57,311 bases of DNA from Rhizobiaceae bacterium. GTDB taxonomy: Bacteria; Pseudomonadota; Alphaproteobacteria; Rhizobiales; Rhizobiaceae. The position numbers were made by a program, and so were the translations under genes. Location of the stretch: contig JAHBYY010000022.1 in NCBI GenBank assembly GCA_019635715.1, positions 1 to 57,311 of the forward strand, in the 5' to 3' direction. The notes under the pieces were generated by a model. The model saw only the letters and a list, made by a program, of their open reading frames with translations, made no database searches and was not told where the DNA came from. Of the stretch, positions 2,177 to 19,508 are shown one piece after another. The stretch's first letter is position 1. Every line of letters starts with the position of its first letter.

Positions 2177-3235
2177 TCAACTGATGCGGGCGCCCGTTTC
2201 ACCGTCGAACAGGTGAACGAGGTTCGGGTGGGGAGCTATGCGGATCGTCGATCCGGGGGTGGCGCTGAACCGGTCGCGGAAGACGCAACTGATCGTCTCG
2301 CCGCTGTCCGCCTCGACCATGACCTGGGTTTCGGAGCCGGTCGGCTCGACCAGGGAAACGCGGACCGGCAGGCCGTCGTCCGACATGCGGATATGTTCCG
2401 GGCGGATGCCGTAGGCGACGGGCCGGCCCTTGTCGCCGTGCCCCTGCACCGTGACGGGCAGCTTCAACCCCTTGTCGCTGACGAAGCCGCCCTCGCCGAT
2501 GCCGCCCGACAAGAGGTTCATCGCCGGCGAACCGATGAAGCCGGCGACGAACTGGTTGACCGGCCGGTCGTAAAGCTCCAGCGGCGTGCCGATCTGCTCG
2601 ACCACGCCCTTGTGCATCACCACGATGCGGTCCGCCATGGTCATGGCTTCAACCTGGTCGTGCGTCACATAGACCGTGGTCGTCCCCAGCCGCTGGTGCA
2701 GCGCCTTGATTTCGGTGCGCATCTGGACGCGCAGCTTGGCGTCGAGATTGGAAAGAGGCTCGTCGAACAGGAAGACCTGCGGATCGCGGACGATGGCGCG
2801 GCCCATGGCGACGCGCTGGCGCTGGCCGCCGGAAAGCTCGCGCGGATAGCGCGCCAGCAGCGCGTCGAGGTCGAGGATGCCGGCCGCGTCGGCGACGCGC
2901 CTGGCGATCTCGGCCTTCTGAACGCCTTTCATGACCAGCGAGAAGCCCATATTCTCGGCCACCGTCATGTGCGGGTAGAGCGCGTAGTTCTGGAACACCA
3001 TGGCGATGTCGCGGTTCTTCGGCGGAACGGCGTTGACCACCTTCTTGCCGATGGCGATCTGGCCGCCCGAGATGTTCTCGAGCCCGGCGATCATGCGCAG
3101 CAGCGTCGACTTTCCGCAGCCCGACGGGCCGACGAGGATCACGAACTCTCCATCGGCGATGTCGAACGTCACGCCGTGAATCACCTTGACCGCGCCGTAG
3201 GCCTTGCGGACGTTGCGGATCTCGACCTCAGCCAT
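2177..3235 (-). CDS. ABC transporter ATP-binding protein, UgpC/MalK type
   Basis: The 352-residue cytoplasmic ATPase that powers a CUT1-family carbohydrate importer. It shows Walker A GPSGCGKST at residues 36-44, Q-loop FQNYALYPHM, signature LSGGQRQRV, Walker B VFLFDEP and H-loop YVTHDQ, then a C-terminal TOBE-type domain of about 110 residues as in MalK/UgpC. Length fits the family. GGGAGAGAG precedes the ATG. It is the last gene of a minus-strand operon with two permeases and a crotonase. CUT1 ATPases can be shared between transporters, so the substrate cannot be read from this gene; the neighbours suggest a sugar or glycoside. Confidence 0.95.
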   Translation of the reverse strand: MAEVEIRNVRKAYGAVKVIHGVTFDIADGEFVILVGPSGCGKSTLLRMIAGLENISGGQIAIGKKVVNAVPPKNRDIAMVFQNYALYPHMTVAENMGFSLVMKGVQKAEIARRVADAAGILDLDALLARYPRELSGGQRQRVAMGRAIVRDPQVFLFDEPLSNLDAKLRVQMRTEIKALHQRLGTTTVYVTHDQVEAMTMADRIVVMHKGVVEQIGTPLELYDRPVNQFVAGFIGSPAMNLLSGGIGEGGFVSDKGLKLPVTVQGHGDKGRPVAYGIRPEHIRMSDDGLPVRVSLVEPTGSETQVMVEADSGETISCVFRDRFSATPGSTIRIAPHPNLVHLFDGETGARIS

Positions 3236-3265
3236 GAATCTCTCTCCCTTCGGTCCCGGATGGCG

Positions 3266-4057
3266 TCAGGACGCCGGTGCTGCCTTGCGCTGGCCGGCAT
3301 AGGCCATGATGCGGCTCTTGAGCCCCGGCCGGCTGGCCGAGGCGACGAGGGCGGCGAGATCCGCCGCGCCGTTCGAGGCACCGGCGGTCGCGGCTCTCAG
3401 CGCGCGAACCGTGTCGGCGGCATGCCTGCTGGCGGCAGCCGCATCCTCGGCGATCCGCGCTTCGATTTCATCCTCGCGAATGATCGCGGTGGCCAATCCG
3501 ATCGACACCGCCTCGGCGGCTCCGACGACGCGGCCGGACTGAAGGATGTCGCGCGCCGGGTCGCGCCCGATCCGGCCGGCCAGCCGACGACTGCCGAGGA
3601 CCAGGCCGAAGCCGGGACCGGGGAAGGAGAAGCGCGTCTCGGCAAGGCAATAGCGGCGATCGCAGGCGACGAAGAGATCGGCTCCGGCGCCGAATGTCCG
3701 ACCCTTCGCGACGGCCAGGGTCGGAACGGGCGAATCGTGGACCTCCTGAAGCAGCATCTCGATGCGCACGAAGCGCAGCAGCAGGTCGCCATCGCTCTGC
3801 GCCTCGAGATCGGAGAGGTCGAAGCCGGTGCACAGGTGCTTTCCCGCTCCAAGGAGCGCGATGAGACGTGCCTCCCCTGCCTGCGCGTCGGCAAGAGCCG
3901 CCGACAGGCCGTCGACCATCGCTGGCCCCAGCGCGTTGCCGACATCCGGCCGCGCCAGTTCCAGCAGCGCCGCCGGCCCGCCGCCGGCTTCGATCGTGCC
4001 GCGATTCACCGGCATGGGCGCGACCGGACGGCCCTGGCAGCGCGCGACGACATGCAC
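3266..4057 (-). CDS. Enoyl-CoA hydratase/isomerase family protein with altered catalytic residues
   Basis: A 263-residue crotonase-fold protein. Oxyanion-hole regions are visible at LCTGFDL (about residues 75-81) and FGAGADL (122-128). Aligning by eye with the classical GGGCEL...QFGQPE pattern, the two catalytic glutamates of true hydratases fall on D127 and G147, so simple hydration of enoyl-CoA is doubtful; isomerase, hydrolase or ring-cleaving activity is possible. The start is a GTG at 4057, ten bases after the permease stop; the next ATG is at 4015. Lying between a sugar permease and its ATPase is unusual and implies that the imported compound is metabolised as a CoA thioester. Confidence 0.8.
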   Translation of the reverse strand: MHVVARCQGRPVAPMPVNRGTIEAGGGPAALLELARPDVGNALGPAMVDGLSAALADAQAGEARLIALLGAGKHLCTGFDLSDLEAQSDGDLLLRFVRIEMLLQEVHDSPVPTLAVAKGRTFGAGADLFVACDRRYCLAETRFSFPGPGFGLVLGSRRLAGRIGRDPARDILQSGRVVGAAEAVSIGLATAIIREDEIEARIAEDAAAASRHAADTVRALRAATAGASNGAADLAALVASASRPGLKSRIMAYAGQRKAAPAS

Positions 4058-4067
4058 CGCACCGCCC

Positions 4068-4889
4068 TCATCCCTTCACCGCGCCCATCGACAGGCCGCG
4101 AACCAGATGGCGCTGCAGCAGCACCATGAAGATGACGATCGGCAGCGTGATGCCGATCGCGGCCGCCGCCGAGAGCGACCAATAGGTGATGTCCTCGGCG
4201 CCGTATTCGGAGATGCCCACCGGCAGCGTGCGGGTGTTCGGTCCCGACAGGACGAGCGCGAACAGGAACTCGTTGTAGGCGAGCAGCAGCGAGAACAGCG
4301 CCGCCACCCAGAGACCCGGCTTCACGATCGGCAGCGCCACGCGGTAGAAGGTCTGCCAGGCATTGCAGCCGTCGATGGCCGCTGCCTCATAGATCTCCTT
4401 CGGAACGTCGGCGAAGAAGCTGCGCATCAGCCAGATCGTGAAGGGCTGGTTGATCGCCACCATCGACAGGATCAGCGCCGGGAAGCTGTCGATCATGTCG
4501 AGGGTCTGCGCGATGACGAAGAAGGGCAGCGCCAGCAGGATATGCGGAAACATGCGCATGCCGAGGATGCCGAGGAGCAGGGGCCGGGACCCGGCTGCCG
4601 ACATGCGTGTGAGCTGGTAGGCCGCCATCGTCCCGAAGGACAGGGAGATGAGGACCGTGCTGACCGCGACGATCACACTGTTGCGCAGATAGGTAACGAA
4701 GCCTTGCTCGGTCCAGACCTGCCAATGGAATTCGAGCGTCGGCTCGAAATCCAGCGACAGCGTCGGCATGAACGCGTCGATCGGCTGCTTGATCGAGATC
4801 AGCGCCGCCCAGAGGATCGGCGACAGGCTGAGCAGCGTGTAGCCGGCGAGCAGCGCGATCAGGATGATCTGGTTGACCGGTCTGTTCAT
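4068..4889 (-). CDS. Carbohydrate ABC transporter permease, MalG-like
   Basis: A 273-residue inner-membrane permease. It has about six hydrophobic segments, the first at residues 7-30 (IILIALLAGYTLLSLSPILW), and the cytoplasmic EAA loop EAAAIDGCNAWQTFYRVALP that docks the ATPase. Size and motif match MalG-type CUT1 permeases. The ATG at 4889 is chosen because the upstream extension is non-coding in this frame and overlaps the preceding permease gene. The start lies two bases after that gene's stop, showing translational coupling. Partner of the 317-residue permease and the UgpC-type ATPase. Confidence 0.93.
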   Translation of the reverse strand: MNRPVNQIILIALLAGYTLLSLSPILWAALISIKQPIDAFMPTLSLDFEPTLEFHWQVWTEQGFVTYLRNSVIVAVSTVLISLSFGTMAAYQLTRMSAAGSRPLLLGILGMRMFPHILLALPFFVIAQTLDMIDSFPALILSMVAINQPFTIWLMRSFFADVPKEIYEAAAIDGCNAWQTFYRVALPIVKPGLWVAALFSLLLAYNEFLFALVLSGPNTRTLPVGISEYGAEDITYWSLSAAAAIGITLPIVIFMVLLQRHLVRGLSMGAVKG

Positions 4890-4891: not shown

Positions 4892-5845
4892 TCAGAACGC
4901 CCCCTTCTCGCGGCGGTAGACGATCCGGATGAGCACCAGCACGACGATCATCTCGATGAGCAGCGTCAGCACGCCGATCGCCGACGCGGTTCCGAAATCG
5001 AGCAGGCGGAAGCCCGTGACATAGGTGAACATGGTCAGCGTCTCCGTCGCGGTGCCGGGTCCGCCGGCGGTGATCACGAAGATCTGGTCGAAGAAGCGGA
5101 AGGAATCCATGATGCGGATCGCCAGCACGAAGAGGATCACCGGCCGGATGTTCGGCACCATGATGCGGATCAGCATGTTCCAGAGGCCGACCCCGTCGAT
5201 CTGGGCGGCCTCGATCTGGCTGCGGTCGACCGTGTTCAATCCCGCGAACAGCACCAGGATGAGGAAGGGCGTGTTCTGCCACATGTCGGCGAGGATGATC
5301 GTGATGCGCGCCCAGAACGCGCTGCCGAGGAAGTCGGGCCCGGTCAGGCCGAACGTGTGCAGCGTCACGTCGATCAGGCCCCAGTCGGGCACGAACACCC
5401 AGCGCAGGAAGAGACCCGAGACGACCGGCGTGATGATGTTCGGCATCATCAGGAAGACGTTGAAGACGCGCGCGCCCGCCCAGAGATTGTAGAGGCCGTA
5501 GGCGATCAGCAGGCCGACGCAGAACTCCAGGCCGACCGACACCACGACGATCATCACCGTGCGGCCGAGGGCGAACCAGAAGCGCCCATCCTGGAGCAGG
5601 CGCAGATAGTTCTCGACGCCGACGAAGCTCTTCTCGCCGCCGAGGAAATAGGTGTGGACGCTCAGATAGAAGGCGAAGCAGAGCGGCGCGATCATCACCA
5701 GAAGCAGGATGAGGCCGCTCGGCACCAGGAACAGCATCGAATCGTTCTGGAGCCGGGCGTCCTTGCCCTCCTCCATGTCTTCGGCAATGTCGACCACCGG
5801 CGCGTCGAGCGTCAGTGTCTTCTCCGACCTGCTTGGTGCGTTCAT
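4892..5845 (-). CDS. Carbohydrate ABC transporter permease, MalF-like
   Basis: A 317-residue inner-membrane permease, first gene of the operon. After a polar N-terminus of about 35 residues come six predicted membrane segments beginning with MLFLVPSGLILLLVMIAPL. The EAA loop reads IEAAQIDGVGLWNMLIRIMVP. It pairs with the MalG-like permease to form the channel of a CUT1 importer. Its promoter region carries the TTCTA-N5-TAGAA palindrome that also precedes the two binding-protein genes, which ties the two halves of the transporter together. The substrate is not evident from the sequence. Confidence 0.93.
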   Translation of the reverse strand: MNAPSRSEKTLTLDAPVVDIAEDMEEGKDARLQNDSMLFLVPSGLILLLVMIAPLCFAFYLSVHTYFLGGEKSFVGVENYLRLLQDGRFWFALGRTVMIVVVSVGLEFCVGLLIAYGLYNLWAGARVFNVFLMMPNIITPVVSGLFLRWVFVPDWGLIDVTLHTFGLTGPDFLGSAFWARITIILADMWQNTPFLILVLFAGLNTVDRSQIEAAQIDGVGLWNMLIRIMVPNIRPVILFVLAIRIMDSFRFFDQIFVITAGGPGTATETLTMFTYVTGFRLLDFGTASAIGVLTLLIEMIVVLVLIRIVYRREKGAF

Positions 5846-6298
5846 CCGGCTACCCAGTCTTCAGCGGAGCCGACCTCTCCGACAGGTCGCGGCCGTCCGC
5901 TCGACGCGGCCGGCTCTCCTCCCTCGGGTCAGTCAGTTCCTCACCTTTGGCTTTCTAATATTTAGAACGCCGTTATAAATATTGCTAAACGGTTTTCCGG
6001 CCGAGTCAATTCGACTCGTTGAGGAGCTGACGCGGCATTCGCCGCAGCGACCGCGGCCTTCGGATCAAGATATTGATATTATTTAATATTATAATCCCAT
6101 GCGACGATCGTCGTCGATCCTGCGCAGATGTTCGAATTGGCCATGTTGCCGGTCATTGGTCCAACGTGCCGCGCCTACACTTCCTCACAGCTTTCGGCGC
6201 AAGTCCCGGAGCGATGCCGCGTTGGGCCGCCGCGGCACTTCCCCTCCGCCGGCCAGGGAGGCTCGACAGCCGGCCGGTTCGAAAGAGGAATGACGAAG
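5846..6298. other. 453-bp divergent control region
   Basis: No gene is seen between the permease operon (leftward) and the Gfo/Idh gene (rightward). It contains the leftward promoter-operator at 5953-6009 and an AT-rich island at 6066-6096 that includes a TATAAT at 6090-6095, a possible -10 box for the rightward genes although no good -35 is correctly spaced. A long in-frame extension of the Gfo/Idh reading frame (from 6128) crosses this region but lacks family similarity. Confidence 0.6.
5953..6009 (-). promoter_or_regulatory. Promoter with palindromic operator before the permease operon
   Basis: Reading leftward: -35 TTGACT (6004-6009), 17-base spacer, -10 AGCAAT (5981-5986), then the palindrome TTCTAATATTTAGAA at 5953-5967, centred roughly 14 bases past the expected start of transcription. 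The same layout, including GGCGTTCTA at the same distance after the -10, recurs before the binding-protein genes. A repressor bound here would block transcription. Confidence 0.7.
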
Positions 6299-7408
6299 AT
6301 GAACAGCGCAACGAGCGGGCCGGTGCGGCTCGGCATGATCGGATGCGGCGCGATCTCGACCATCCACGGCGAAGCGATGCAGGCGAGCCGCGAGGTCGTC
6401 TTCGCTGCCTGCGCGGACAAGTCGGCGGAGGCGGCGCGGGCCTTCGCCGACCGCTTCGGCGCGACCGGCGTCCATGGCGACATGATCGCCATGGTGCGCG
6501 CCGAGAAGCTTGACGGCGTGGTGCTGGCGACCTGGCCGGCGCACCACCACCAGCACGTCTTCGCGCTGATCGACGCCGGCGTGCGCTTCATCCTCTGCGA
6601 GAAGTCGCTGACCACCAGCGGGCCCCTGGCGATGGAGATCCATGAAAAGGCGAGACAGGCCGGCGCCACCGTCATCGAAGGCTTCATGTTCCGCCACCAT
6701 CCGCTCTATCAGCAGTTGGACGCGCTGGTTCAGGGCGGAGAGATCGGCAAGGTCGACACGATCCGCGCCGGCTTCCAGGAACTCGACGAAGACGAGGTCG
6801 CGCCGGCCGGCGGCGGCGGCAAATGGCGCCAGCAGAAGGCCTCCGGCGGTGGCGTCGCCTATGACGGCACCTGCTATCCGCTGCATGCCTGCAACCATCT
6901 GGCGCGCAGCCTGCCGGCCAAGGTCTCGTTCGACGGCGAGATGAGCCGCTTCGGCACGCTGGTGCGCCTGCATGGCTGGGTCCGCTACGAGAACGGCATA
7001 ACGGCGCTGATCCACAGCAGCCTGCGGGCGGTGGTCTGCAAGGAAACGGAGGTGAACGGCGCGACCGGATCGCTCTACCTGCCGATTGCCTACGGTTTCA
7101 ACATCCCGGAGCGCGACGCGATCCGCAAGCGCACCGGAATCAACAACCTGTCGATGACGGATGTCACGCTGCCGCCGCCGCGACAGCCCGGCGGCCACGA
7201 GAACCGCCTCGCCCCGCGCAGACAGCTCGAAAGCTTTGCCGAAATGATCCGCGGGACATCGCCCTCCCGTGTTCCGCTGATTGAATCGGTGGCGAACGCC
7301 TTTACCATGGACGCGATCATCAAGAGCGCTGAGACAGGGCGCGTCGTCGATGTCGAGATGCCGTCGGCGGTGCGCGACGCCTGGCATGGACGAGCCTTGG
7401 CCGCGTAG
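6299..7408 (+). CDS. Gfo/Idh/MocA family NAD(P)-dependent oxidoreductase
   Basis: A 369-residue cytoplasmic dehydrogenase. An N-terminal Rossmann fold opens with LGMIGCGAIS at residues 11-20; the family EKP motif appears as EKS (in LCEKSLTTS), a conservative deviation at the cofactor edge. The C-terminal alpha/beta domain holds EGFMFRHHPLYQQL. Members oxidise or reduce hydroxyls of sugars, inositols and glycosides. The ATG at 6299 is preferred because AGAGGA at 6284-6289 is well spaced; an ATG at 6290 is too close. Followed after 24 bases by the rhodanese gene. In this island it probably oxidises the sugar part of the imported compound. Confidence 0.88.
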   Translation: MNSATSGPVRLGMIGCGAISTIHGEAMQASREVVFAACADKSAEAARAFADRFGATGVHGDMIAMVRAEKLDGVVLATWPAHHHQHVFALIDAGVRFILCEKSLTTSGPLAMEIHEKARQAGATVIEGFMFRHHPLYQQLDALVQGGEIGKVDTIRAGFQELDEDEVAPAGGGGKWRQQKASGGGVAYDGTCYPLHACNHLARSLPAKVSFDGEMSRFGTLVRLHGWVRYENGITALIHSSLRAVVCKETEVNGATGSLYLPIAYGFNIPERDAIRKRTGINNLSMTDVTLPPPRQPGGHENRLAPRRQLESFAEMIRGTSPSRVPLIESVANAFTMDAIIKSAETGRVVDVEMPSAVRDAWHGRALAA

Positions 7409-7432: not shown

Positions 7433-7834
7433 GTGAAGAAGGGCATCAAGGATCTTCTCGACGAGGCGCGGCGCGAGATCGTGACCCTGGGGACCGCGGA
7501 GGCGATCGCCCTGCACGGCGATCCAGACACCGTGTTCGTCGACCTGCGCGACCCGCGCGAGCTGGAGCGGGAGGGCACCATTCCCGGTGCCTTCCGCTGC
7601 ACGCGGGGAATGCTGGAATTCTGGATCGACCCGGAGAGCCCCTATCACAAGCCGGTCTTCGCCGAGCCGAAGACCTTCGTCTTCTACTGCGCGAGCGGCT
7701 GGCGCTCGGCGCTCGCGACCAAGACGGCGCAGGACATGGGGCTCGAGAAAGTGGCCCATATCGATGGCGGGTTCGGTGCCTGGCGGAAGGCCGGCGGACC
7801 GGCGGAGCCCTTCCCGCCCGCAAAAGGCGGCTGA
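7433..7834 (+). CDS. Single-domain rhodanese-like protein
   Basis: A 133-residue cytoplasmic protein with one rhodanese homology domain. The catalytic loop CASGWRS starts at C86 and has the full CxxxxR pattern, so sulfurtransferase chemistry is plausible. VFVDLRDPRELEREGTIPGA is the usual first motif. The start is GTG at 7433 with AGGGAG twelve bases upstream. It is co-directional with the Gfo/Idh gene and probably co-transcribed. Why a rhodanese belongs to a sugar-type catabolic island is unclear; it could handle a sulfur-containing substrate or protect from cyanide or sulfide released in catabolism. That is conjecture. Confidence 0.88.
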   Translation: MKKGIKDLLDEARREIVTLGTAEAIALHGDPDTVFVDLRDPRELEREGTIPGAFRCTRGMLEFWIDPESPYHKPVFAEPKTFVFYCASGWRSALATKTAQDMGLEKVAHIDGGFGAWRKAGGPAEPFPPAKGG

Positions 7835-7982: not shown

Positions 7983-9353
7983 TCAGGCCGGCTCCGGCCG
8001 TCGGATGACGCCTTGGCGCGCCCGGCGCGCGCCGCGCTCCAGTTCGCGCCGCAGCTCGCGGACATAGTCGGAGCAGCCAATATGGCGGGAATAGGCGTCC
8101 GAGGCGAAATGCACCGGACGGCCGCCGCCGGGCGCGCAGGCCTCGGCGATCTCGTCCGGCGGCGGAAGGCGGTAGCGCCCCGCCAGCAGCTCGCCGACGA
8201 AACGCGCCTGCTGTTCCGCCACGGGGATGACGGCGCACAGCGGCTGCATGAAGCCGATGAAGAACAGATTGTCGAATCGCGGATCGACGACCCGGTTCCA
8301 CAGCCGCAGATCCTTGTCGCCGGTCGGCATGAAGCCGTCGGCGAAGAACGGAAACACGATCGAATAGCCGGTCGCGTAGATGATCGCATCGACCTCGTTG
8401 CGGGAACCGTCCGAGAACACCACGGCCTTGCCGTCCAGCCGCTCGATACCCGGCTTTATGACGATGTCGCCCGATCCGATGCGGTTGTAGAGTTCCTGGC
8501 TGGTCGCTGCCCGGGTGAAATCGAGTTCCCGCTCCGGCGCCGGCAGTCCAAAATGCTCCGGCCGCCCGAGCGTCGCCTCGATGTCCCTGACCCGCCGGCG
8601 GGCCGACCACCTCTTCGGCCACAGCCGCCTTCGCAGCGGCACGGGTTTCGACGGATGTTCGATATTGTGGTCGGCAGGCCGGCCACCTCCGAAGAAGCGC
8701 GGTACGACCCAGTATCCGCGGCGCATCGACAGATAGAGCGTGTGGTTCTGCTCCTTGCGTCCGAGTTCGCAGGCGATGTCGAGCGCCGAGTTGCCGAAGC
8801 CGACGACCAGGATCGATTTTTCGCGCAGATCATGCGGATCGGCCGGGTCGATATAGTCATGGGCGTGCATCTCGATCCCGTCGAACGTGCCGGGATAGCG
8901 CGGCGACGGCCAGCGCGGAAACCAGTGGCGGCCGGTGGCGACGCACAGATAGGCATATTCGCGGGTCTCGCCGCTCTGCAGCGTCACCAGCCAGGTGCCG
9001 TCGTCGCGCCGCTGCGCCCGCTCGACGCCGCATTTGAAGCGGATGCGGTCGCGAAAGCCGAAATGATCGACATACTGCTCGCAATAGACCGCGATCTGCT
9101 CGTGGAAGGGATAGTCCGGATAGTCCGAAGGCATCGGAAAGTCCGAAAACTCCATCTTGCTACGCGACGTGTTCATGTGCAGCGATCGATAGATCGAAGA
9201 CATGCCGTTGCTGTTCTTGAAGACCCAGTTGCCGCCGACGCGATCGGAGGTCTCGAAACAGTCGTAGTCGATGCCGGCCTCGCTCAGCGCCTTGCAGGCG
9301 GCGATCCCGGACGAGCCGGCTCCGATCACACACGTCCGTCCATGCCTGCGCAC
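7983..9353 (-). CDS. Flavin-containing monooxygenase (FMO/Baeyer-Villiger type)
   Basis: A 456-residue class B flavoprotein monooxygenase. It shows the FAD-binding GAGSSG near the N-terminus, the FMO fingerprint FDGIEMHAHDY near residue 160, a second Rossmann motif GFGNSALD for NADPH near 190, and IYATGY near 320. Such enzymes insert one oxygen atom into N-, S- or carbonyl-containing substrates. The GTG at 9353 lies eight bases after GGAG; a TTG three bases upstream is the alternative. It is the last gene of the leftward SnoaL-SDR-FMO series and converges on the rhodanese gene. Confidence 0.88.
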   Translation of the reverse strand: MRRHGRTCVIGAGSSGIAACKALSEAGIDYDCFETSDRVGGNWVFKNSNGMSSIYRSLHMNTSRSKMEFSDFPMPSDYPDYPFHEQIAVYCEQYVDHFGFRDRIRFKCGVERAQRRDDGTWLVTLQSGETREYAYLCVATGRHWFPRWPSPRYPGTFDGIEMHAHDYIDPADPHDLREKSILVVGFGNSALDIACELGRKEQNHTLYLSMRRGYWVVPRFFGGGRPADHNIEHPSKPVPLRRRLWPKRWSARRRVRDIEATLGRPEHFGLPAPERELDFTRAATSQELYNRIGSGDIVIKPGIERLDGKAVVFSDGSRNEVDAIIYATGYSIVFPFFADGFMPTGDKDLRLWNRVVDPRFDNLFFIGFMQPLCAVIPVAEQQARFVGELLAGRYRLPPPDEIAEACAPGGGRPVHFASDAYSRHIGCSDYVRELRRELERGARRARQGVIRRPEPA

Positions 9354-9432
9354 CAATACCGCTCCAACAGAGTTTCGATCGAAAGGGGGATTGAGCGGCG
9401 CGCCGCGCGCTGGGCCGGCGCGCCGTTCGCGA

Positions 9433-10194
9433 TCACATGGCGGTGAAGCCGCCGTCGATCATGAGCTCGGTGCCGGTGATGTAGCTGGCTTCATCCGAGG
9501 CGAGGAAGAGGACGCCGTAGGCGATCTCGTCCACCGTGCCGATGCGGCCCATCGGAACCCACTTCAGCTTCTCGGCGAAGGCGATTTCGGACGGGTCGAC
9601 GACCTCGTTGTTGCGCTGGATCATGCGCGGCATGAAGCCCGGATGCACCGAGTTCACGCGGATGTTGTTCTTGGCGTAGAGAACCGCGGCCTGCTTGGTA
9701 TAGTTCCAGACAGCGCTCTTGGAGGCACCGTAGACCGGGTTGCCGCCCTCGGCGATGAAGGAGGCGATCGAAGCGATGTTGACGATGGCGCCGCCGCCGG
9801 CCTTGATCATCTCCTTCACCGCCAGCTTGGTGCCGATGAAGACGCTGGTCATGTTGACGTCCATGACATGGTGCCAGTCCTCGACACTCTCCGGGTCGTA
9901 GAGGCGGGCGCCGATCCCGGCGTTGTTGACCAGTATGGTCAGCTTGCCGAAGGCCTCGACCGTCTCGGCGATGACGCGCTTCCAGTCGTCTTCGCTGGTG
10001 ACATCGCCCTGCACGAAGATGACTTCGCCGCCGGCATCCCTGATGCGCTCGACAACCGGAGCCGCGAGATCCTCGCGCACGTCCATGATGCAGACCTTGG
10101 CGCCCTCGCGCGCCAGCATCGCGGCTTCCGCCGCGCCCATTCCGTTGGCGCCGCCACTGACGATCGCGACCTTACCTGCAACTCTTCCTGGCAT
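9433..10194 (-). CDS. SDR family dehydrogenase
   Basis: A 253-residue classical short-chain dehydrogenase. The cofactor motif SGGANGMG lies at residues 13-20, NNAG around residue 88, and the catalytic SIASFIAEGG...YGASK tetrad around 140-160. The C-terminus ends in the common GTELMIDGGF. It oxidises a hydroxyl or reduces a ketone; D33-type acidic residue in MDVRED after beta-2 favours NAD(H). The ATG at 10194 is taken because the longer frame upstream is non-coding. It lies between the SnoaL-repeat gene and the FMO gene, likely in the same transcript. Confidence 0.9.
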   Translation of the reverse strand: MPGRVAGKVAIVSGGANGMGAAEAAMLAREGAKVCIMDVREDLAAPVVERIRDAGGEVIFVQGDVTSEDDWKRVIAETVEAFGKLTILVNNAGIGARLYDPESVEDWHHVMDVNMTSVFIGTKLAVKEMIKAGGGAIVNIASIASFIAEGGNPVYGASKSAVWNYTKQAAVLYAKNNIRVNSVHPGFMPRMIQRNNEVVDPSEIAFAEKLKWVPMGRIGTVDEIAYGVLFLASDEASYITGTELMIDGGFTAM

Positions 10195-12007: not shown

Positions 12008-13270
12008 TCAGCTCTTGTAAAAGCCGTTCGAGGTCAGCAGCGCGCGCGTTTCCCTGGCGGCCTCGTTCATGGCTTCGCCGGCCTTCATTTCATCGGTGAG
12101 GACCTGAGCGAAGCGACGCGTCACGATCTCCACGACCGGGTAGAAATACGGCATGCTGGGATAGGACTTGCCCACCTTCGCGGCACCGGCGGCGGCGACG
12201 AGATACGGATACTGCGCCGTCAGCGCCTCGTCGTTGAGCACGGAGGCGCGGGTCGGCACATTGTTGGCGATGTTGCCGCGCATTGCCTCCTCGCGCATCG
12301 ACTCCAGCATGACGCGGAACAGAAGATCGGGATCCTTGGTGCTGAACTTGGGGATCGAGTAGCCGGAAACGGTGAAGCGCTGGCCGCCGCCGCCCGGCAC
12401 GGCGAAACCGAACTTGCCGACAAAGCGCGACTTGGCGGGATTGTCCATCGAACTCGCCCGCGTCGCCCACATGTTCCCCATGGTGGAGAAGCCCTGCTGC
12501 AGGGCAAGCGCGCCCTCTTCGCTGCCCGCCGTCGCGTAGCCCCGTTGAGCGAACCTGGTCAGATCCTTCATGAACTCGACGGCGGCAATTCCCTTTTCCG
12601 AATTGAAGGCCGGCTGCCAGTCGGCATCGAACCAGCCATCGCCGACCGTATTGAGGAAATAGGTCATGGCGCTGGCGCCCTGGTCGCCCACCTTGAAGGT
12701 CAGCACCACCCCGCCCTTGCCGGCGGCGACCAGCGCCTCGGCGTTGTCGCGCAACTGCTGCGCCGACTGCGCCGGTGTCAGCCCGGTCTCCTCGAAGACA
12801 TCCTTCCTGTAGAACTGCAGATGCGAGTTGAACTCGTTCGGGACCTGGTAGAGGTGGCCATCGCTGGACGAAGCCCGCAGAAGGGCCTCATCGATGTCGC
12901 CGAGACCGTATTCGTCCTTGTATTTCTCCCACAGGTCGTCGAGCGGCCGAAGCCAGTCGTTCCTCGCATAGTTGATCAGGTTGGTGTCGTTGCAGGCGAT
13001 GATGTCGAGGTTGGCCGAACCGGAGGCGAGGTTGATGTTGACCAACTCGTTCTGCTTGTCCGACGGCACAAGCTGAACGTTGACGTCGACGCCCGGGGTC
13101 TTCTTCATCGCCTCCGCATAGTACTCGGATGCCGGGTAGCGAATGATCAGCGCCTGGACGGCATCCGCGGCATTCACCGTCCGCGAGCCGAGGCCGATGG
13201 CCGGCATGGCCAGTCCGCCCGCCGCGATGCCCTGCAACAGGGTGCGGCGATTGAGTGTGGTGTTGCGCAT
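12008..13270 (-). CDS. ABC transporter substrate-binding protein 1 (CUT1 type, Tat-exported)
   Basis: A 420-residue periplasmic binding protein of the family 1 extracellular solute-binding type. The N-terminus has a twin-arginine motif (NRRTLLQG) followed by a hydrophobic stretch and a probable cleavage after VNAA, so it is probably exported folded by Tat. GGAGGACAAT precedes the ATG at 13270, and the longer frame upstream is not coding. It is closely similar along its whole length to the next binding protein (shared YRYPASEYYAE-type N-terminus, NINLAS and LLTSNGFYKS C-terminus), showing a tandem duplication. It probably feeds the MalFG-like permeases at 4068-5845. Confidence 0.9.
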   Translation of the reverse strand: MRNTTLNRRTLLQGIAAGGLAMPAIGLGSRTVNAADAVQALIIRYPASEYYAEAMKKTPGVDVNVQLVPSDKQNELVNINLASGSANLDIIACNDTNLINYARNDWLRPLDDLWEKYKDEYGLGDIDEALLRASSSDGHLYQVPNEFNSHLQFYRKDVFEETGLTPAQSAQQLRDNAEALVAAGKGGVVLTFKVGDQGASAMTYFLNTVGDGWFDADWQPAFNSEKGIAAVEFMKDLTRFAQRGYATAGSEEGALALQQGFSTMGNMWATRASSMDNPAKSRFVGKFGFAVPGGGGQRFTVSGYSIPKFSTKDPDLLFRVMLESMREEAMRGNIANNVPTRASVLNDEALTAQYPYLVAAAGAAKVGKSYPSMPYFYPVVEIVTRRFAQVLTDEMKAGEAMNEAARETRALLTSNGFYKS

Positions 13271-13394: not shown

Positions 13395-14660
13395 TCAGCT
13401 CTTGTAGAAGCCGTTCGAGGTGAGCAGGTCGCGAACCTCCTGCGCCGCGGCATCCATAGCCGCCTGCGCCTCGCTCTCGCCCTGAAGCACCTGGCTGACG
13501 CGCCGCGAAACGATTTCGCCGACCGAGAAGAAATAGGGCATGTGCGGCATGTTCTTGCCGGCCTTCGCCGCCCCGGCCGCCGCGACCAGATACGGAAACT
13601 CGTTGACCAGTTCCTGGTCGGCCAGCAGCGACAGGCGCGTCGGCACGTTGTTCTTGGTGTTGCCGCGCATGCTCTCCTTCTTGGCGGCCTCCATGATCGC
13701 CCGGAACATGACGTCCGGATCCTGCTTGCTGAAGGCCGAGATGGCGAAACCGGTCAGGCTGATGCGCTGGTTGCCGGCCGCGGCGACGGCGGTGCCGATC
13801 TTGCCGACGAAACGCGACTTCTTCGGATCGTCCATGGAACCGGCGCGGGTGAGATAGTGATTGCCCATCGCCGAGAAGCCCTGCTGCAGGGCGAGCGCCG
13901 CCTCGTCGCTGCCCGAGGTCGCGAAACCACGCTGCGCATAGGCGCTCATTTCCTTCATGAACTTGATGGCATCGATGCCCTTCGGCGAATTGAACGTCGG
14001 CTGCCACTCGGCATCGAACCATCCGTCGCCGATGTTGTTGAGGTAGTAGTGCGTCTCGGTGAACAGCGGATCGCCGATGCGGCCGAGCATGATGGTGCCG
14101 GAACGCTTGTCGGTCTGCAGGGCGGCGGCGTTGCTCTTGTACTCCTCCAGCGTCGTCGCCGGCTTCAGGCCCATCTCCTCGAAGATGTCCTTGCGATAGA
14201 ACTGGATCAGGCTGTTGAACTCGGTCGGCACCACATAGATGTTGCCGTCCGCCGAAAGGCCCTCGACGATCTTGGGGTCGATGTCGTCGAGCTCGTATTC
14301 GGCCCGGTACTTGTCCCACAGGTCGTTGAGCGGCCGCAGCCACTTGTTCTGCACGTAGCTCGCCAGCAGCGCGTCCGTCGCCATGAAGATGTCGAGGTTG
14401 GACGAGTTGGACGCGAGATTGATGTTGACCAGCTCCATCACCTTGTCGGACGGCATCAACTGGACGTTGATCTCGCTGCCGGGCACGCCCGCCTTCAGCC
14501 GCTCCGCGTAATATTCGGACGCCGGATAGCGGTAGCCGATCATCTGGATCGGATCGGCGGCGTTGACCGTCCTCGACCCGAGGCCGATGGCCGGCGCCGC
14601 GAGGCCGGTGGCGGCCAGCGCTTTCAGCAGTGCGCGGCGATCGAGTGTTGCAGCAGTCAT
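13395..14660 (-). CDS. ABC transporter substrate-binding protein 2 (CUT1 type, Tat-exported)
   Basis: A 421-residue paralogue of the downstream binding protein, first in its operon. The signal peptide has DRRALLKALAATGL and a likely cleavage near VNAA-D. The ATG at 14660 follows GGAGGAAACG; an in-frame ATG 27 bases upstream would add an acidic stretch before the signal and is unlikely. It keeps features of carbohydrate-binding proteins (FYRKDIFEEMGLKPATTLEEY). Having two receptors for one permease pair suggests two related ligands, or one ligand over different concentration ranges. Transcription starts at the operator-bearing promoter at 14747-14803. Confidence 0.9.
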   Translation of the reverse strand: MTAATLDRRALLKALAATGLAAPAIGLGSRTVNAADPIQMIGYRYPASEYYAERLKAGVPGSEINVQLMPSDKVMELVNINLASNSSNLDIFMATDALLASYVQNKWLRPLNDLWDKYRAEYELDDIDPKIVEGLSADGNIYVVPTEFNSLIQFYRKDIFEEMGLKPATTLEEYKSNAAALQTDKRSGTIMLGRIGDPLFTETHYYLNNIGDGWFDAEWQPTFNSPKGIDAIKFMKEMSAYAQRGFATSGSDEAALALQQGFSAMGNHYLTRAGSMDDPKKSRFVGKIGTAVAAAGNQRISLTGFAISAFSKQDPDVMFRAIMEAAKKESMRGNTKNNVPTRLSLLADQELVNEFPYLVAAAGAAKAGKNMPHMPYFFSVGEIVSRRVSQVLQGESEAQAAMDAAAQEVRDLLTSNGFYKS

Positions 14661-14746
14661 CGTTTCCTCCTCCAAGACGTCGTTCATCGTGAATCCGACC
14701 GGCGAGTTGCCAACGCCCCGCGTTCAGGCCAGTCGACGGCCTCTTG

Positions 14747-14803
14747 TTCTATATTTTAGAACGCCATACTGTATATTGTAAACTTGCAGGGCAACATCGT
14801 CAA
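14747..14803 (-). promoter_or_regulatory. Strong promoter with palindromic operator before the binding-protein genes
   Basis: Leftward -35 TTGACG (14798-14803), 17-base spacer and -10 TACAAT (14775-14780) form a near-consensus housekeeping promoter. The palindrome TTCTATATTTTAGAA occupies 14747-14761, about +7 to +21, a typical repressor position. The arrangement matches the permease operon promoter base for base in spacing. Confidence 0.78.
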
Positions 14804-14944: not shown

Positions 14945-15703
14945 ATGGCCATGGCATTCTCGCTTGCCGGCAGGCGCGCGCTGGTGACCGGCGCCTCGGG
15001 CGGACTGGGCCAGGCAATGGCGCTGGCGCTCGCGCGTGCCGGCGCCGAGATCGTCTGCGCCGGCCGATCCGACATGGGCGCGACGATCCGGCAGGTGGAG
15101 CAGATGGGGGGAACGGCCTTCGCGCTGCAGTGCGATCTCTCCCGGCCGCAGGCGCCGGAACGGATGATCGCCTCGGCATGGGAGACCGACCGGCCTCTCG
15201 ACATCCTCGTCAACAATGCCGGGACGCTGACGCGCTCGGACGCCACAGACGTCACCGAGGCCGAATGGGACACCGTCATGGAGCTCAACGCCCGGCAGGT
15301 TTTCTTTACGGCACAAGCATTTGGACGCCGCGTCCTGGCCGCGGGCCGGCGCGCCAAGATCATCAACGTGGGATCGATCATGTCGATGCGCGGCGGCCAT
15401 CGCATCGCGCCCTACGCCGCATCCAAACATGCCGTCGCGGGGATCACGCGCCACCTCGCCTGCGAATGGGCATCCCGCGGCATCAACGTCAATGCCATCG
15501 CGCCGGGCTTCTTCGACACCGAGATGAACGGCGCCATGAAGGCCGACCGCGCCCGGTATGAGGCCTCCCTGGCGCGGATTCCCGCCGGCACCTGGGCCGA
15601 GCCGTCGGCCATCGGCGGCGCGGCGGTGTTCCTAGCCAGCGCGGCTTCGGATTACGTCCACGGCATCCTGCTGCCCGTCGATGGCGGCTGGCTGGCGCGC
15701 TAG
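14945..15703 (+). CDS. SDR family dehydrogenase, KduD/gluconate-dehydrogenase-like
   Basis: A 252-residue short-chain dehydrogenase with TGASGGLG at residues 15-22, NNAG near 92, and the catalytic S...YAASK set near 140-160; the C-terminus is GILLPVDGGW. The pattern INVGSIMSMRGG and NVNAIAPGFFDTEMN is like sugar-acid dehydrogenases such as KduD. The GTGGGC-type purine stretch before the start is weak (GGGG at 14941-14944). It is transcribed away from the binding-protein genes, and 186 bases before the CoA-transferase gene, which has its own promoter. The substrate is not known. Confidence 0.88.
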   Translation: MAMAFSLAGRRALVTGASGGLGQAMALALARAGAEIVCAGRSDMGATIRQVEQMGGTAFALQCDLSRPQAPERMIASAWETDRPLDILVNNAGTLTRSDATDVTEAEWDTVMELNARQVFFTAQAFGRRVLAAGRRAKIINVGSIMSMRGGHRIAPYAASKHAVAGITRHLACEWASRGINVNAIAPGFFDTEMNGAMKADRARYEASLARIPAGTWAEPSAIGGAAVFLASAASDYVHGILLPVDGGWLAR

Positions 15704-15756: not shown

Positions 15757-15819
15757 TTGACCGGGCGGCAGTTGGCACGCATAAATAATATATAGGAAAG
15801 TGTTCCATTTTTTAGAACA
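15757..15819 (+). promoter_or_regulatory. Promoter with palindromic operator before the CoA-transferase gene
   Basis: Rightward -35 TTGACC (15757-15762) and -10 CATAAA (15780-15785) with a 17-base spacer are followed by TGTTCCATTTTTTAGAACA at 15801-15819. Its inner 15 bases (15803-15817) are the third copy of the TTCYA-N5-TAGAA operator of this island, again just downstream of the -10. Confidence 0.65.
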
Positions 15820-15889: not shown

Positions 15890-17050
15890 ATGACGAACGC
15901 CAGCCTTCCCCTTGCGGGAATCCGCGTCATCGAGTTCTGCCAGGTGGCCGCCGGGCCGTTCTGCGGCATGCTGCTGGCCGACATGGGCGCCGACGTCATC
16001 AAGGTGGAACATCCCGCCGGCGGCGATTCGATGCGCGCCTGGCCGCCATTGACCGACGGCTTCAGCGAGAATTTCGCCTCGCTCAACCGCAACAAGCGGT
16101 CCGTCGCGCTGGATCTGAAGGATCCTGCGCAGCGTCAGGCCGCCCACGGCCTCTGCCGGACGGCGGATGTCGTCATCGAGAACAATCGCCCCGGTGCGAT
16201 GGACCGGAACGGGCTCGGCTACCAGCAGATCAGCGGCATAAATCCCCGCATCGTCTACTGTTCGATCTCCGGCTTCGGCCAGGAGGGTCCCCGCGCCCAG
16301 GAAGGTGGCTTCGACGTGACGATCCAGGCGGTGGCCGGAGTGATGAGCGTGACCGGCGAACCCGACGGCGCTCCGGTGAAGTGCGGCGTGCCGATCAGCG
16401 ATTTTTCGACCGGCCTCTACGCCGCCTTCTCCATCGTCGCGGCGCTGCGCGACGTCGAGCGCCACGGCCGGGGCCGAAACATCGACATCTCGCTGATGGG
16501 CGCGACGCTGGCGGTCGCCGCATTGCAGACGTCGGAGTATTTCGGCACGGGCCGCTCGCCGCGAAAGCTGGGTTCGGCCCATCCGCGCAACGCGCCCTAC
16601 CAGGCCTTCCGCGCCTCCGACGGCCATTTCGTCATGGCGGCCGGCAACGACAGGCTGTGGGCGAGCGTCTGCGATGTGATGGGGCGTGGCGATCTGCTGG
16701 CCGATGCGCGTTTCGGTTCGACATCGGACCGGGCCAGGAATCAGAACGAGCTGCGCGGCCTGCTCGAATCGAGCTTCGCGACGCGCACCGCCGGCGAATG
16801 GCTGGAAGCCTTCCGTGCCGCCGGCGTTCCCTGCGCGCCGATCAACACCTATGCCGACGCGCTGGCCGACCCGCAGGTCGCCGCCATGGGCTGGGTCCAG
16901 GAGATCACCCTGCCCTCCGGCGCGATCGCGCAAACCTTCGGCAATCCCGTCCGCCTGGACGGCGCGACGCTTGCGGTCAGGCGCAATCCGCCCGGCCTCG
17001 GCGAGCATAATGACGAGATCCTCGGCGGCATGCGGGGCGCCGCGTCGTGA
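15890..17050 (+). CDS. CaiB/BaiF-type (family III) CoA-transferase
   Basis: A 386-residue cytoplasmic enzyme that moves CoA between carboxylic acids. It opens with LPLAGIRVIEFCQVAAGPFCGMLLADMGADVIKVE, the usual family start, followed by LNRNKRSVALDLK. The Asp in RNIDISLMGA near residue 199 probably corresponds to the catalytic aspartate that forms the acyl anhydride. Length is close to the family norm of about 400. It is first in a transcript that continues 94 bases later with the IclR gene. It suggests that the imported substrate, or a product of its oxidation, is a carboxylate activated as a CoA ester. Confidence 0.92.
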   Translation: MTNASLPLAGIRVIEFCQVAAGPFCGMLLADMGADVIKVEHPAGGDSMRAWPPLTDGFSENFASLNRNKRSVALDLKDPAQRQAAHGLCRTADVVIENNRPGAMDRNGLGYQQISGINPRIVYCSISGFGQEGPRAQEGGFDVTIQAVAGVMSVTGEPDGAPVKCGVPISDFSTGLYAAFSIVAALRDVERHGRGRNIDISLMGATLAVAALQTSEYFGTGRSPRKLGSAHPRNAPYQAFRASDGHFVMAAGNDRLWASVCDVMGRGDLLADARFGSTSDRARNQNELRGLLESSFATRTAGEWLEAFRAAGVPCAPINTYADALADPQVAAMGWVQEITLPSGAIAQTFGNPVRLDGATLAVRRNPPGLGEHNDEILGGMRGAAS

Positions 17051-17144: not shown

Positions 17145-17891
17145 ATGGACAAGACGCTTCTGAAGGGCCTGGCGATGATCGAGGCCCTCGCCAACAGCCG
17201 CAACCCGCGTGGCGTGTCGGACCTCGCCGAGGAAATGGACCTCACCAAGAGCAACGTCCATCGGGTGCTGAAGACGCTCGAATCGGCCGGCTATGTCGCG
17301 CAACTGCCGGCCACCGGACGCTACAAGCTGTCGCTCAAGCTCTGGGAGCTGGGATCGAAGCTCATCTCCCGCCTCGAGCTGAAGCGCGAGGCGCTGGACG
17401 TGATGGAACGCCTGTCGGATTCGAGCCGCGAGACCGTGCACCTCTCCATCCTCGACGGCGCCGAGGTGATCTACATCGACAAGATCGACAGTCCGGAGCC
17501 GATCCGCGCCTATTCGACGATCGGCGGCCGCGCGCCGGCCTATGCGGTGGCGACCGGCAAGGCGCTGCTCGCCTTCCGCCAGCCCGATCCCGTCGGCCAG
17601 TTGGAGATCGTCCCGTTCACGCCGAACACCGTGCGCAACGCCAAGGAACTGTCGACCGAACTCGGCCGCATCCGCGCCCAGGGCTACGCCATCAACACCG
17701 GCGAGTGGCGCGACGGCGTCTCGGGCGTGGCCGCGCCGATCTACGGTCCGGACGGGGTGGTCGAGGCGGCGATCGGCATTTCCGGCCCGACGATCCGCTT
17801 CAAGCCGAAACGCGTGAAGCTCCTGGTCGAGGAAGTGGTCGCGGCGGCGGCGACCATATCGTCGCGCCTCGGGCATCGCGCCTCGCTCTGA
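17145..17891 (+). CDS. IclR family transcriptional regulator
   Basis: A 248-residue DNA-binding regulator. Residues about 1-70 form the winged helix (GVSDLAEEMDLTKSNVHRVLKTLESAGYV), and the rest is the IclR effector domain ending in APIYGPDGVVEAAIGISGP. The ATG at 17145 gives the standard short N-terminus before the helix. It is the only regulator in the 2-19.5 kb island and is the natural candidate to bind the three TTCYA-N5-TAGAA palindromes, since IclR proteins bind 13-15-bp palindromes over promoters. It is followed by a strong hairpin at 17898-17922. The effector is unknown. Confidence 0.93.
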   Translation: MDKTLLKGLAMIEALANSRNPRGVSDLAEEMDLTKSNVHRVLKTLESAGYVAQLPATGRYKLSLKLWELGSKLISRLELKREALDVMERLSDSSRETVHLSILDGAEVIYIDKIDSPEPIRAYSTIGGRAPAYAVATGKALLAFRQPDPVGQLEIVPFTPNTVRNAKELSTELGRIRAQGYAINTGEWRDGVSGVAAPIYGPDGVVEAAIGISGPTIRFKPKRVKLLVEEVVAAAATISSRLGHRASL

Positions 17892-17897: not shown

Positions 17898-17922
17898 GGC
17901 AATCGCCGTTCAGGCGATTGCC
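17898..17922 (+). terminator. Hairpin terminator after the IclR gene
   Basis: GGCAATCGCC, loop GTTCA, then GGCGATTGCC: a 10-bp perfect stem with a five-base loop beginning seven bases after the stop codon. There is no T-run behind it, so termination efficiency is uncertain. Confidence 0.6.
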
Positions 17923-17948
17923 GCGGCTCCGACGGCCGGAAAGCCTCG

Positions 17949-17971
17949 CTTATCGCCATTTTGGCCATAAG
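17949..17971 (+). promoter_or_regulatory. Candidate operator before SnoaL gene B
   Basis: A 23-bp inverted repeat with 10-base arms CTTATCGCCA and TGGCCATAAG (nine of ten pairs match) around TTT, about 98 bases upstream of the ATG at 18069. Its inner 15 bases match, with one difference, the motif before SnoaL gene A at 11861-11875. Confidence 0.6.
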
Positions 17972-18068
17972 CGCCATAGGTCGCCACCCCCCTGGCTGAC
18001 ATCGTGCCGACAGGAGCGGACGGCCCGCCGATGAGCGGCGCGGCCGTCGCGGCAAAGGGAATTTTGCG

Positions 18069-19508
18069 ATGAACGAAGCGGTCATCCCCGGCGCGGGCGA
18101 CCTGATCCTGTCCGGCCCGGCGGCGGACGTCGAGGCGGTCAAGGAGGTGATGAAGCGCTACGCATGGTCGCTCGACATGTGCGACTGGGAGCGGCTGGAA
18201 ACCTGCTTCGCACCGGACATCCTGTTCGAGACCAGCGACATGGGCCGCCACGAAGGCGCCAGGGCGCTGATCGCGCAGTTCCAGACGCGCACCGTGCGCG
18301 TGCCGGTGCGCCGCCATTCGATCGCCACGCCCTATGTCCGCGTCGAGGGCGATCGCGCCGAGTTCACCGCCTATATCCTGAACACCCGCTACCGCCCGCG
18401 CGCGCCGGGCGGCGAGTTCTTCATGGCGGGCGGCTACTACCGCAACAGCTTCAAGCGCACCGCCGACGGCTGGAAGATCACCAACCTTCGCTTCGAGGGA
18501 CTTTTCGTCGAAGGCAACACCCGCATGAACCCGGCCGCGGCTCCGGCGCCCTACTATCCGGTGATGAAGGGCCTGGCCGATGCGGGCTGGGGCGGCGCCA
18601 CCGTGCCCGCCGTCCCCGGCGCCTCGAACATCGCGCAAGTGCGCGACCTCGTCTTCGGCATGGCGCGCGCCGCCGACGCGCGGTCGACCGGCGATGTCGA
18701 GGCGGCGTTCACGCCCGAGGCGGCGGGCGATGTCGCCGGCAGCGGCGAGGTCAAGGGTGCCGCCGCGCTGGCCGCTGCACTCTGCCCGCCGGGCGGACCG
18801 GCCTGGACGATGCATTTCCTCACCAATGACAAGATCAGCGTCGTCGGCGACACGGCGGATTTCGGCGTCTACGTCTATCGCATCACTCCCGGGGCGCAGG
18901 GCGAGGCCAACACCCACGCAGGGGGCGTGATGGTCGGCACCGCGAGGCGGACCGAGGCCGGCTGGCGCATCGCCGAATGCCGCACCCACATCCTGTGGAC
19001 CCGCGGCGTGCCGCTCTACGAGGATCCTCTGGTCAGGCGGCAGGACATCGCCGCGGCGGCGAAAAAGCTCTGGGCCAACGAGGACCGCCGCGAGCGCGGG
19101 ACGGTGCAGGAGGAGATCCTCGCGCTGCACTGGAAATACACCTGGTCGTTCGACCTCAACGATCCGGCACAGAACACGCAGGTCTTCGCCGACGACGTCG
19201 AGGTGTCGATCACGCTCGACCAGATCGTCCGGCATTTCGGCCGCCACGACTGGATCACCGCCAACCTGGCCGGCCGCAACCGGCAGATGGTGACGCTGCA
19301 CTACGTCACCAACCCGATCGTCACCCATATGTACAATCCGGACCTCGCCGAGATCCGCACCTATGTGATGACGCGCCGCACGGCGCCCGGCGATCCCGGC
19401 CCGGTGATGATCGCCGGCGGCCACTATCGGGCGGTCGCCCAGCGGATCGACGGCCAGTGGAAATACGTGATCTTCCAGTTCGTCCGCTCGCACGGCGCGT
19501 TCGAATAG
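18069..19508 (+). CDS. Triple SnoaL/NTF2-like domain protein B
   Basis: A 479-residue paralogue of the protein at 10272-11699 with the same three-repeat plan. Repeat 1 has VMKRYAWSLDMCDWERLET, PVRRHSIATPYVRVEGDRAEF and YYRNSFKRTADGWKI; repeat 2 (about 185-320) has HFLTNDKISVVGDTADFGVYVY; repeat 3 (about 345-479) has LHWKYTWSFDLNDPAQN and ends WKYVIFQFVRSHGAFE. The two proteins differ in the centre of repeats 2 and 3, which suggests different substrates or a heteromer. It is monocistronic, preceded by the palindrome it shares with gene A. Probably a cytoplasmic dehydratase, isomerase or binding protein; no function assigned. Confidence 0.75.
   Translation: MNEAVIPGAGDLILSGPAADVEAVKEVMKRYAWSLDMCDWERLETCFAPDILFETSDMGRHEGARALIAQFQTRTVRVPVRRHSIATPYVRVEGDRAEFTAYILNTRYRPRAPGGEFFMAGGYYRNSFKRTADGWKITNLRFEGLFVEGNTRMNPAAAPAPYYPVMKGLADAGWGGATVPAVPGASNIAQVRDLVFGMARAADARSTGDVEAAFTPEAAGDVAGSGEVKGAAALAAALCPPGGPAWTMHFLTNDKISVVGDTADFGVYVYRITPGAQGEANTHAGGVMVGTARRTEAGWRIAECRTHILWTRGVPLYEDPLVRRQDIAAAAKKLWANEDRRERGTVQEEILALHWKYTWSFDLNDPAQNTQVFADDVEVSITLDQIVRHFGRHDWITANLAGRNRQMVTLHYVTNPIVTHMYNPDLAEIRTYVMTRRTAPGDPGPVMIAGGHYRAVAQRIDGQWKYVIFQFVRSHGAFE

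Follow-up and report, generated by a model that had tools for sequence, protein, structure and literature searches.

We analysed a 17.3-kb stretch (positions 2177..19508) of contig JAHBYY010000022.1 from a Rhizobiaceae bacterium (GenBank assembly GCA_019635715.1), the whole 57,311-nucleotide contig being called the window below. The 15 genes of this stretch are a real, conserved, orphan catabolic gene set; its parts are of known kinds, and the combination as well as a protein built of three fused SnoaL domains are novel variants. Because three palindromes are confined to the cluster and nine putative orthologues lie together in a second genome, we treat the 15 genes as one unit. With moderate confidence, we read this unit as a single substrate-induced catabolic regulon with its own IclR regulator, in which a sugar-like compound taken up by a CUT1 importer would undergo oxidation by a Gfo/Idh dehydrogenase, elimination by the SnoaL proteins, redox adjustment by a flavin monooxygenase (FMO) and short-chain dehydrogenases/reductases (SDRs), transfer to coenzyme A (CoA) and processing by a crotonase. 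No description of this gene set was found in open-licence papers.

Gene content and a shared palindrome

The cluster reads MalK, crotonase, permB and permA on the reverse strand, Gfo/Idh and rhodanese on the forward strand, FMO, SDR1, SnoaL1, SBP1 and SBP2 on the reverse strand, and finally SDR2, CoA-transferase, IclR and SnoaL2 on the forward strand, with gaps of 148, 257 and 444 bp at the three strand switches. Every gene named in a preliminary description of this DNA is present and scores above its Pfam gathering threshold. The importer operon starts with permease A (permA, 4892..5845) and continues with permease B (permB, 4068..4889), both of the BPD_transp_1 family, and ends with a MalK/UgpC-type ATPase (2177..3235) that carries ABC_tran, OB_MalK and TOBE_2 domains and passes the cut-off of the NCBIfam UgpC model; the crotonase (ECH_1, 3.7e-25; 3266..4057) sits within this operon, between permB and MalK. 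Two SBP_bac_1 receptors, SBP1 (12008..13270, with a twin-arginine-like leader) and SBP2 (13395..14687), share 58-59% identity and complete a typical CUT1 set of receptor, two permeases and ATPase with a MalK OB/TOBE domain. The remaining genes encode a GFO_IDH_MocA dehydrogenase (Gfo, 6290..7408), a single-domain rhodanese (4.6e-17; 7433..7834) with a CASGWR loop that we take to be its active-site loop, an FMO-like protein (4.4e-71; 7983..9356), SDR1 (adh_short_C2; 9433..10194), the KduD-like SDR2 (14945..15703; TIGR01832 at 4.1e-98, just under its cut-off), a CoA_transf_3 protein (15890..17050), an IclR regulator (IclR_C, 1.4e-46; 17145..17891) that follows it after about 90 bp, and the two SnoaL proteins. 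For five genes the coordinates rest on probable starts internal to the mechanically called open reading frames (permB about 4889, Gfo about 6290, SDR1 10194, SBP1 13270 and IclR about 17145).

The palindrome GTTCTAWAWWTTAGAAC, allowing up to two mismatches, occurs at exactly three places in the 4.57-Mb assembly (151 contigs, 85% complete), all of them promoter gaps of the cluster: between permA and Gfo (5952..5968), between SBP2 and SDR2 (14746..14762, no mismatch) and before the CoA-transferase (15802..15818, two mismatches). A reversed-pattern control gave no match in the assembly. Within the window, six matches with up to three mismatches (three places on both strands) compare with 0.17 expected; the pattern was derived from the cluster sites themselves, and it is the lack of copies elsewhere in 4.57 Mb that constitutes the independent result. 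Two further loci gave two chance-level matches at three mismatches (L039) and none (L051). We infer that the three sites are candidate operators bound by the IclR protein, and that the cluster is probably self-regulated. The single regulon claimed in the preliminary description is borne out to this extent.

Conservation, rarity and genomic setting

A collection of 84,980 species genomes was scanned with an alignment of the SnoaL core, which returned one relative, on contig UBJO01000021.1 of Rhizobiales bacterium AFS000508 (hereafter G932); a version using the N-terminal peptide gave no match. G932 encodes three triple-SnoaL proteins, of which the scan caught only one; its sensitivity is therefore low, and the single species should be read as a minimum. 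Contig C56 of G932 carries, between 0.4 and 11.3 kb, nine putative orthologues, so termed from identity and position only: MalK (69%), crotonase (51%, at the same place), permB (78%), permA (69-71%), Gfo (58%), FMO (68%, beside SnoaL1), SnoaL1 (54%), IclR (64.5%) and CoA-transferase (74%). Contig C109 adds those of SnoaL2 (59%), SBP1 (60%) and SDR1 (70%) together with a second SnoaL1-like protein (56%), so that 12 of the 15 genes have a putative orthologue in G932. The order permA-permB-crotonase-MalK, the divergent Gfo gene, the FMO/SnoaL1 neighbourhood and the succession of CoA-transferase and IclR are kept. The preliminary description had named rarity of joint occurrence as the finding that would count against it; the genes do occur together in the one other genome found, though the set is rare overall.

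All three triple-SnoaL genes of G932 have sugar-type ABC genes nearby: the first lies near the C56 importer, the SnoaL2 orthologue adjoins an SBP_bac_1 gene, and the third is 74 bp away from a different CUT1 importer. At this last locus (L051, 9824-15557), the importer's MalK match falls into two frames. Also in this genome, 25 bp separate the SnoaL2 gene from a preceding AP_endonuc_2 gene, of which a second copy, 63% identical, is located 1.8 kb beyond the CoA-transferase. A TauE/SafE sulfite-exporter-like gene (L050, 17381-18148) adjoins the SBP1 relative, a hint of sulfur chemistry. Rhodanese and SDR2 may be accessory to the set, because no rhodanese match was found in the 120 kb of G932 read and the best SDR2 match (53%) is on a separate contig (C143).

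Sampling of genomes at several taxonomic depths points to a rare and patchy distribution. The triple-SnoaL protein was found only in its own genome, that is in one of 199 family, 397 order, 385 class and 398 phylum genomes; the four draws overlap, and only the best candidates per genome were scored (eight in the family draw, four in the others), so that single misses are possible. Relatives of permA at E<=1e-70 occurred in three of 198 family genomes, two of them at 47-50% identity and none except the window's own above 55%, as against 71% in G932. In the plasmid collection, no match to a triple-SnoaL protein spanned 80% of the query, and SBP2 had no match at 1e-30. For the FMO, identities reached at most 45% among the 25 matches listed of 29 records, and the two neighbourhoods opened were unrelated; for permA, they reached at most 38% among the eight matches listed of 27 records. 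This rare and patchy occurrence suggests that the gene set has moved horizontally.

The window is an entire contig of the assembly (C67), and it looks native rather than contaminating because its right end (47.9-55.8 kb) matches two genomes of the same genus at 72-79% DNA identity. In these two congeners, the 60 kb read in each beyond the part matching window position 47.9 kb, where the left portion of the window would be expected, contained no cluster gene at orthologue level; the matches were confined to SDRs and ATPases at 32-39%, and DNA matches to one edge piece and a dispersed repeat. To the left of the cluster, positions 627-1976 encode TPR repeats fused to a methyltransferase; to the right, a dTDP-sugar/exopolysaccharide locus begins with rmlC at 19560. 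Farther on, a Peripla_BP_5 receptor, oligopeptide-type ABC genes and an acetamidase/formamidase-like gene (47694-55924) are largely syntenic in the two congeners. A dispersed repeat of about 158 bp (53909-54068) has dozens of matches, some on both strands, at 74-82% in the congeners and one further family member, and resembles a palindromic intergenic element of the family.

Triple-SnoaL proteins and CoA chemistry

SnoaL1 (10272..11699, reverse strand) and SnoaL2 (18069..19508, forward strand) each contain three SnoaL_4 stretches in a single chain (Pfam 2.2e-53 and 2.4e-58). A profile of five such proteins had the uncharacterised protein 3b8l as its top match. It also matched a scytalone-dehydratase-like protein (1.6e-6), for which domain 3 gave the best alignment, and BaiE (4l8o; 2.7e-6), the SnoaL-fold dehydratase of bile-acid 7-dehydroxylation, for which domain 1 did. 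The AlphaFold model of SnoaL2 (pLDDT 80.8, pTM 0.86) gave single-domain Foldseek matches to the putative scytalone dehydratase 3ef8, BaiE, LinA and LdpA. Residues Y31, D36 and H83 of domain 1 and Y357, D362 and H411 of domain 3 are invariant in all five proteins and align with the Tyr/Asp/His set of BaiE, which we take to be that enzyme's working residues. The middle domain is degenerate: its Tyr is missing in all five proteins, and a His near the corresponding strand is found only in the two SnoaL2-type proteins. BaiE itself is a single-domain protein that forms a trimer in crystals (PMC13101464), and here three SnoaL_4 domains share one chain. Because the triad is kept in domains 1 and 3, the middle domain is degenerate and BaiE is trimeric, SnoaL1 and SnoaL2 are read as putative covalent pseudo-trimers of a dehydratase or lyase, with two predicted working sites and a middle domain that would be worn out.

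The CoA-transferase belongs to family III, with PF02515 matching over its full length (residues 8-374, 3.4e-134), and bears at residue 168 a PISDFSTG loop, presumably the place of the catalytic Asp. The crotonase has Asp and Gly where the ordinary crotonase of the same genome (L027) keeps two Glu, at what we take to be the catalytic positions; the G932 orthologue shows the same replacement, and two members of the paired subfamily described below likewise lack both Glu. Its best relative of solved structure is 3isa, followed by EchA6, which we assume to lack hydratase activity. A classical enoyl-CoA hydratase step is disfavoured by these positions.

Five plasmid loci were examined among 15 matching records, and in all five a CoA-transferase lies beside this type of crotonase or one gene from it. 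The transferase directly precedes the crotonase in Paraburkholderia graminis PHS1 and Cupriavidus necator (an unannotated record, read by tblastn), and one gene intervenes in Bradyrhizobium sp. Ash2021, Polaromonas and B. guangxiense. Identities to the window's proteins are 56-66% for the CoA-transferase and 43-46% for the crotonase (in Polaromonas, in pieces, 63-74% and 39-56%). The plasmid loci differ from the window in their other neighbours: a Rieske oxygenase in P. graminis and Ash2021, a cupin annotated as cysteine dioxygenase in Polaromonas and B. guangxiense, and no SnoaL, Gfo or FMO match in any. Such Rieske or 'cysteine dioxygenase' partners occur in four of the five loci (L073, L074, L075, L076 and L077). 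Because the pair recurs in all five while the other neighbours differ, it appears as a portable module, which seems common to several orphan pathways. The recurrence further suggests that the crotonase of the importer operon and the separately promoted CoA-transferase belong together, in keeping with the CoA chemistry that the preliminary description had anticipated.

Proposed pathway, alternatives and related systems

In the pathway that we propose, the CUT1 importer with its two paralogous receptors would take up a sugar-like, polyhydroxylated or glycosylated compound, and Gfo would oxidise a ring hydroxyl to a ketone. The ketone would acidify the neighbouring C-H bond and allow the triple-SnoaL proteins to eliminate a beta substituent, either water or an aglycone. 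The FMO and the SDRs may then adjust the oxidation state to yield a free carboxylic acid, which the CoA-transferase would activate with, for example, succinyl-CoA as donor; the resulting ester would be processed by the glutamate-less crotonase. Import and CoA transfer have a firm basis in family membership, the elimination step would follow from the retained SnoaL residues, and the order of the steps, each individual reaction and the substrate class are inferred.

Among the receptor relatives of solved structure are proteins that bind trehalose/maltose, sorbitol, beta-glucosides and sulfoquinovose, the best solved relatives of Gfo are sugar 3-ketoreductases, and G932 has AP_endonuc_2 genes; together these point to a polyhydroxylated ring or a glycoside as the substrate. 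The AlphaFold model of SBP1 (pLDDT 72) is too imprecise for conclusions about a ligand. Outside the regulon, the nearest importers lie beside an arabinofuranosidase-type gene (G016), an alpha/beta-hydrolase gene (G127) and a GMC/UPF0261/AP_endonuc_2 set (own genome), and suggest no common substrate. Calystegine catabolism was considered as a candidate, and nothing on it was found in open-licence papers.

The preliminary description had envisaged a glycosylated or cyclic substrate whose sugar or aglycone would be oxidised, ring-opened by the FMO and fed through CoA esters. The regulon, the conserved gene set, sugar-type import and CoA chemistry are supported, and three other elements so far are not. 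Besides the classical hydratase step, this concerns ring opening by the FMO: the protein carries FxGxxxHxxxY, in the window and in G932, in place of FxGxxxHxxxW, which we take to be the type I Baeyer-Villiger fingerprint. The FMO-like profile, two dinucleotide-binding GxGxx[GA] motifs and FxGxxxHxxx[YF] make it a class B FMO by the motifs we assume for that class, and FMOs also oxygenate nitrogen and sulfur. A glycosylated substrate likewise gains no support from the gene content, no glycosidase, GMC oxidase or AP_endonuc_2 gene being found among the 15 genes of the cluster.

Several observations weigh against the proposed regulon and pathway. The gaps before SnoaL1, FMO and SnoaL2 contain no copy of GTTCTAWAWWTTAGAAC (other inverted repeats occur there), so these genes may rely on read-through or another control. 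The same palindrome is absent from the cluster promoters of G932, where a single three-mismatch site lies outside the cluster (0.91 expected). These promoters bear another element, TTGAACAATTTGAAC, picked after the fact: four sites with up to two mismatches in 120 kb against 0.10 expected (40 simulations), three of the four at cluster promoters, a count that is not independent since the element was defined from those same sites. Its positions at up to three mismatches (L045, 4216-4264 and 8915; L050, 11475) precede permA/Gfo, SnoaL1 and the AP_endonuc_2-SnoaL2 pair on two G932 contigs, and no copy was seen ahead of the CoA-transferase, of SBP1 or of the third SnoaL gene; the element may be the operator used in G932. 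Orthology between the two genomes was, as stated, a judgement from identity and position, the rhodanese and a second receptor of the SBP1/SBP2 type were not found in the 120 kb of G932 read, and SDR2 has its closest match there on a contig apart from the rest. For the SnoaL2 model, the good Foldseek matches are single-domain proteins (TM about 0.25 relative to the query and as high as 0.78 relative to the target), and the fit is poor for the multi-domain matches Lsd19, MonB and an iota-carbonic anhydrase (TM no higher than 0.22 relative to the query, root-mean-square deviation 15-33), including the two-domain epoxide hydrolases Lsd19 and MonB that rank first by E-value (15-17). Among NCBIfam models, inositol 2-dehydrogenase comes nearest to Gfo, with a score far under its cut-off, and the cluster is without the TIM-barrel eliminase and the GMC oxidase of known 3-keto-glycoside operons.

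Degradation of a steroid, bile acid or terpenoid (or a glycoside of one), with SnoaL proteins acting like BaiE, the CoA-transferase like BaiF, the SDRs as hydroxysteroid dehydrogenases and the FMO as a Baeyer-Villiger enzyme, has in its favour that SnoaL1 and SnoaL2 have few sequence relatives of solved structure and that BaiE is one of them; SteC, a SnoaL/NTF2 dehydratase of steroid degradation, also resembles BaiE (PMC13101464). Yet the importer and its receptors are sugar-type, the solved proteins nearest to Gfo are sugar ketoreductases, SDR2 is KduD-like, and the 15 genes include neither a ring-cleavage dioxygenase nor a thiolase; we consider this account unlikely. An organosulfur sugar, such as a thioglycoside or a sulfonated sugar, is another candidate, in which the FMO would oxygenate sulfur, the rhodanese handle sulfane sulfur and sulfite be exported. 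The rhodanese gene directly follows Gfo, the SmoF sulfoquinovose-binding proteins are among the receptor relatives, the TauE/SafE gene adjoins SBP1 in G932, and in Polaromonas and B. guangxiense the gene that separates CoA-transferase from crotonase is annotated 'cysteine dioxygenase'. This idea strikes us as distinctly unlikely, given that the rhodanese was not found in the G932 loci read, that no sulfonate monooxygenase or desulfinase is among the 15 genes, and that SmoF is one of many receptor relatives and not the closest.

That the stretch merely juxtaposes several unrelated operons with no joint pathway might be argued from the three strand switches with their gaps, and from the split of the genes over two contigs in G932; the palindromes, unique in the assembly, that join three promoter gaps, and the nine putative orthologues found together, speak strongly against this view and make it very improbable. 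The least probable of the accounts is in our judgement a biosynthetic or detoxifying role: polyketide and secondary pathways often use SnoaL and FMO enzymes, as the Lsd19 and MonB fold matches illustrate, but the 15 genes include no synthase or export gene, and a high-affinity importer with an IclR regulator and a CoA-transferase is the usual make-up of substrate catabolism. Within the catabolic regulon that we favour, the triple-SnoaL proteins could represent a new class of metal-free eliminases for 3-keto sugars or keto-cyclitols, covalent trimers with two working sites and one spent domain that would replace or follow the Mn-dependent TIM-barrel eliminases, in a pathway routing a sugar-like ring to CoA esters via the FMO and the glutamate-less crotonase; we offer this as a speculative and unlikely extension.

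Among known systems, the Agrobacterium 3-keto-glycoside oxidation-elimination operon (GlycDH, AtOGE, AtHYD, Gfo; PMC10628242) and the levoglucosan operon (PMC7676230) resemble the cluster in their Gfo/Idh oxidoreductase, in the proposed oxidation followed by beta-elimination and in their Rhizobiales hosts. The cluster differs in having Gfo without a C3 oxidase of the GMC type or a TIM-barrel Mn eliminase, and in possessing SnoaL, FMO, CoA-transferase and crotonase genes. Its own genome does hold a GMC/AP_endonuc_2/Gfo set elsewhere, with a paralogous importer: locus L027 (C24:14000-33900) combines an importer of 55-64% identity with Gfo, AP_endonuc_2, GMC oxidoreductase, cupin, UPF0261, PEP-hydrolase-like and FAD-oxidase/Fe-S genes, and is a second orphan sugar-type cluster, nearer to the known 3-keto-glycoside type. 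Three further MalK paralogue loci of this genome (L028-L030) have permeases of only about 30% identity. The bai operon, which we take to comprise BaiE, BaiF and BaiA, shares a SnoaL-fold dehydratase with the aligned Tyr/Asp/His set, a family III CoA-transferase and an SDR, and differs in its single-domain dehydratase as well as in import, Gfo, FMO and regulator. Compared with other CUT1 sugar importers of Rhizobiales, which are alike in SBP_bac_1 receptors, two permeases and UgpC-type ATPase, the one described here stands out by a second, paralogous receptor and by a crotonase gene within the operon of permeases and ATPase.

This work delimits a bounded orphan pathway, with one regulator, three candidate operators confined to the cluster, two receptors and putative orthologues of most of its genes in a second genome. 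The fused SnoaL protein would exemplify a trimeric enzyme that has naturally become fixed as a single chain and lost one of its sites.

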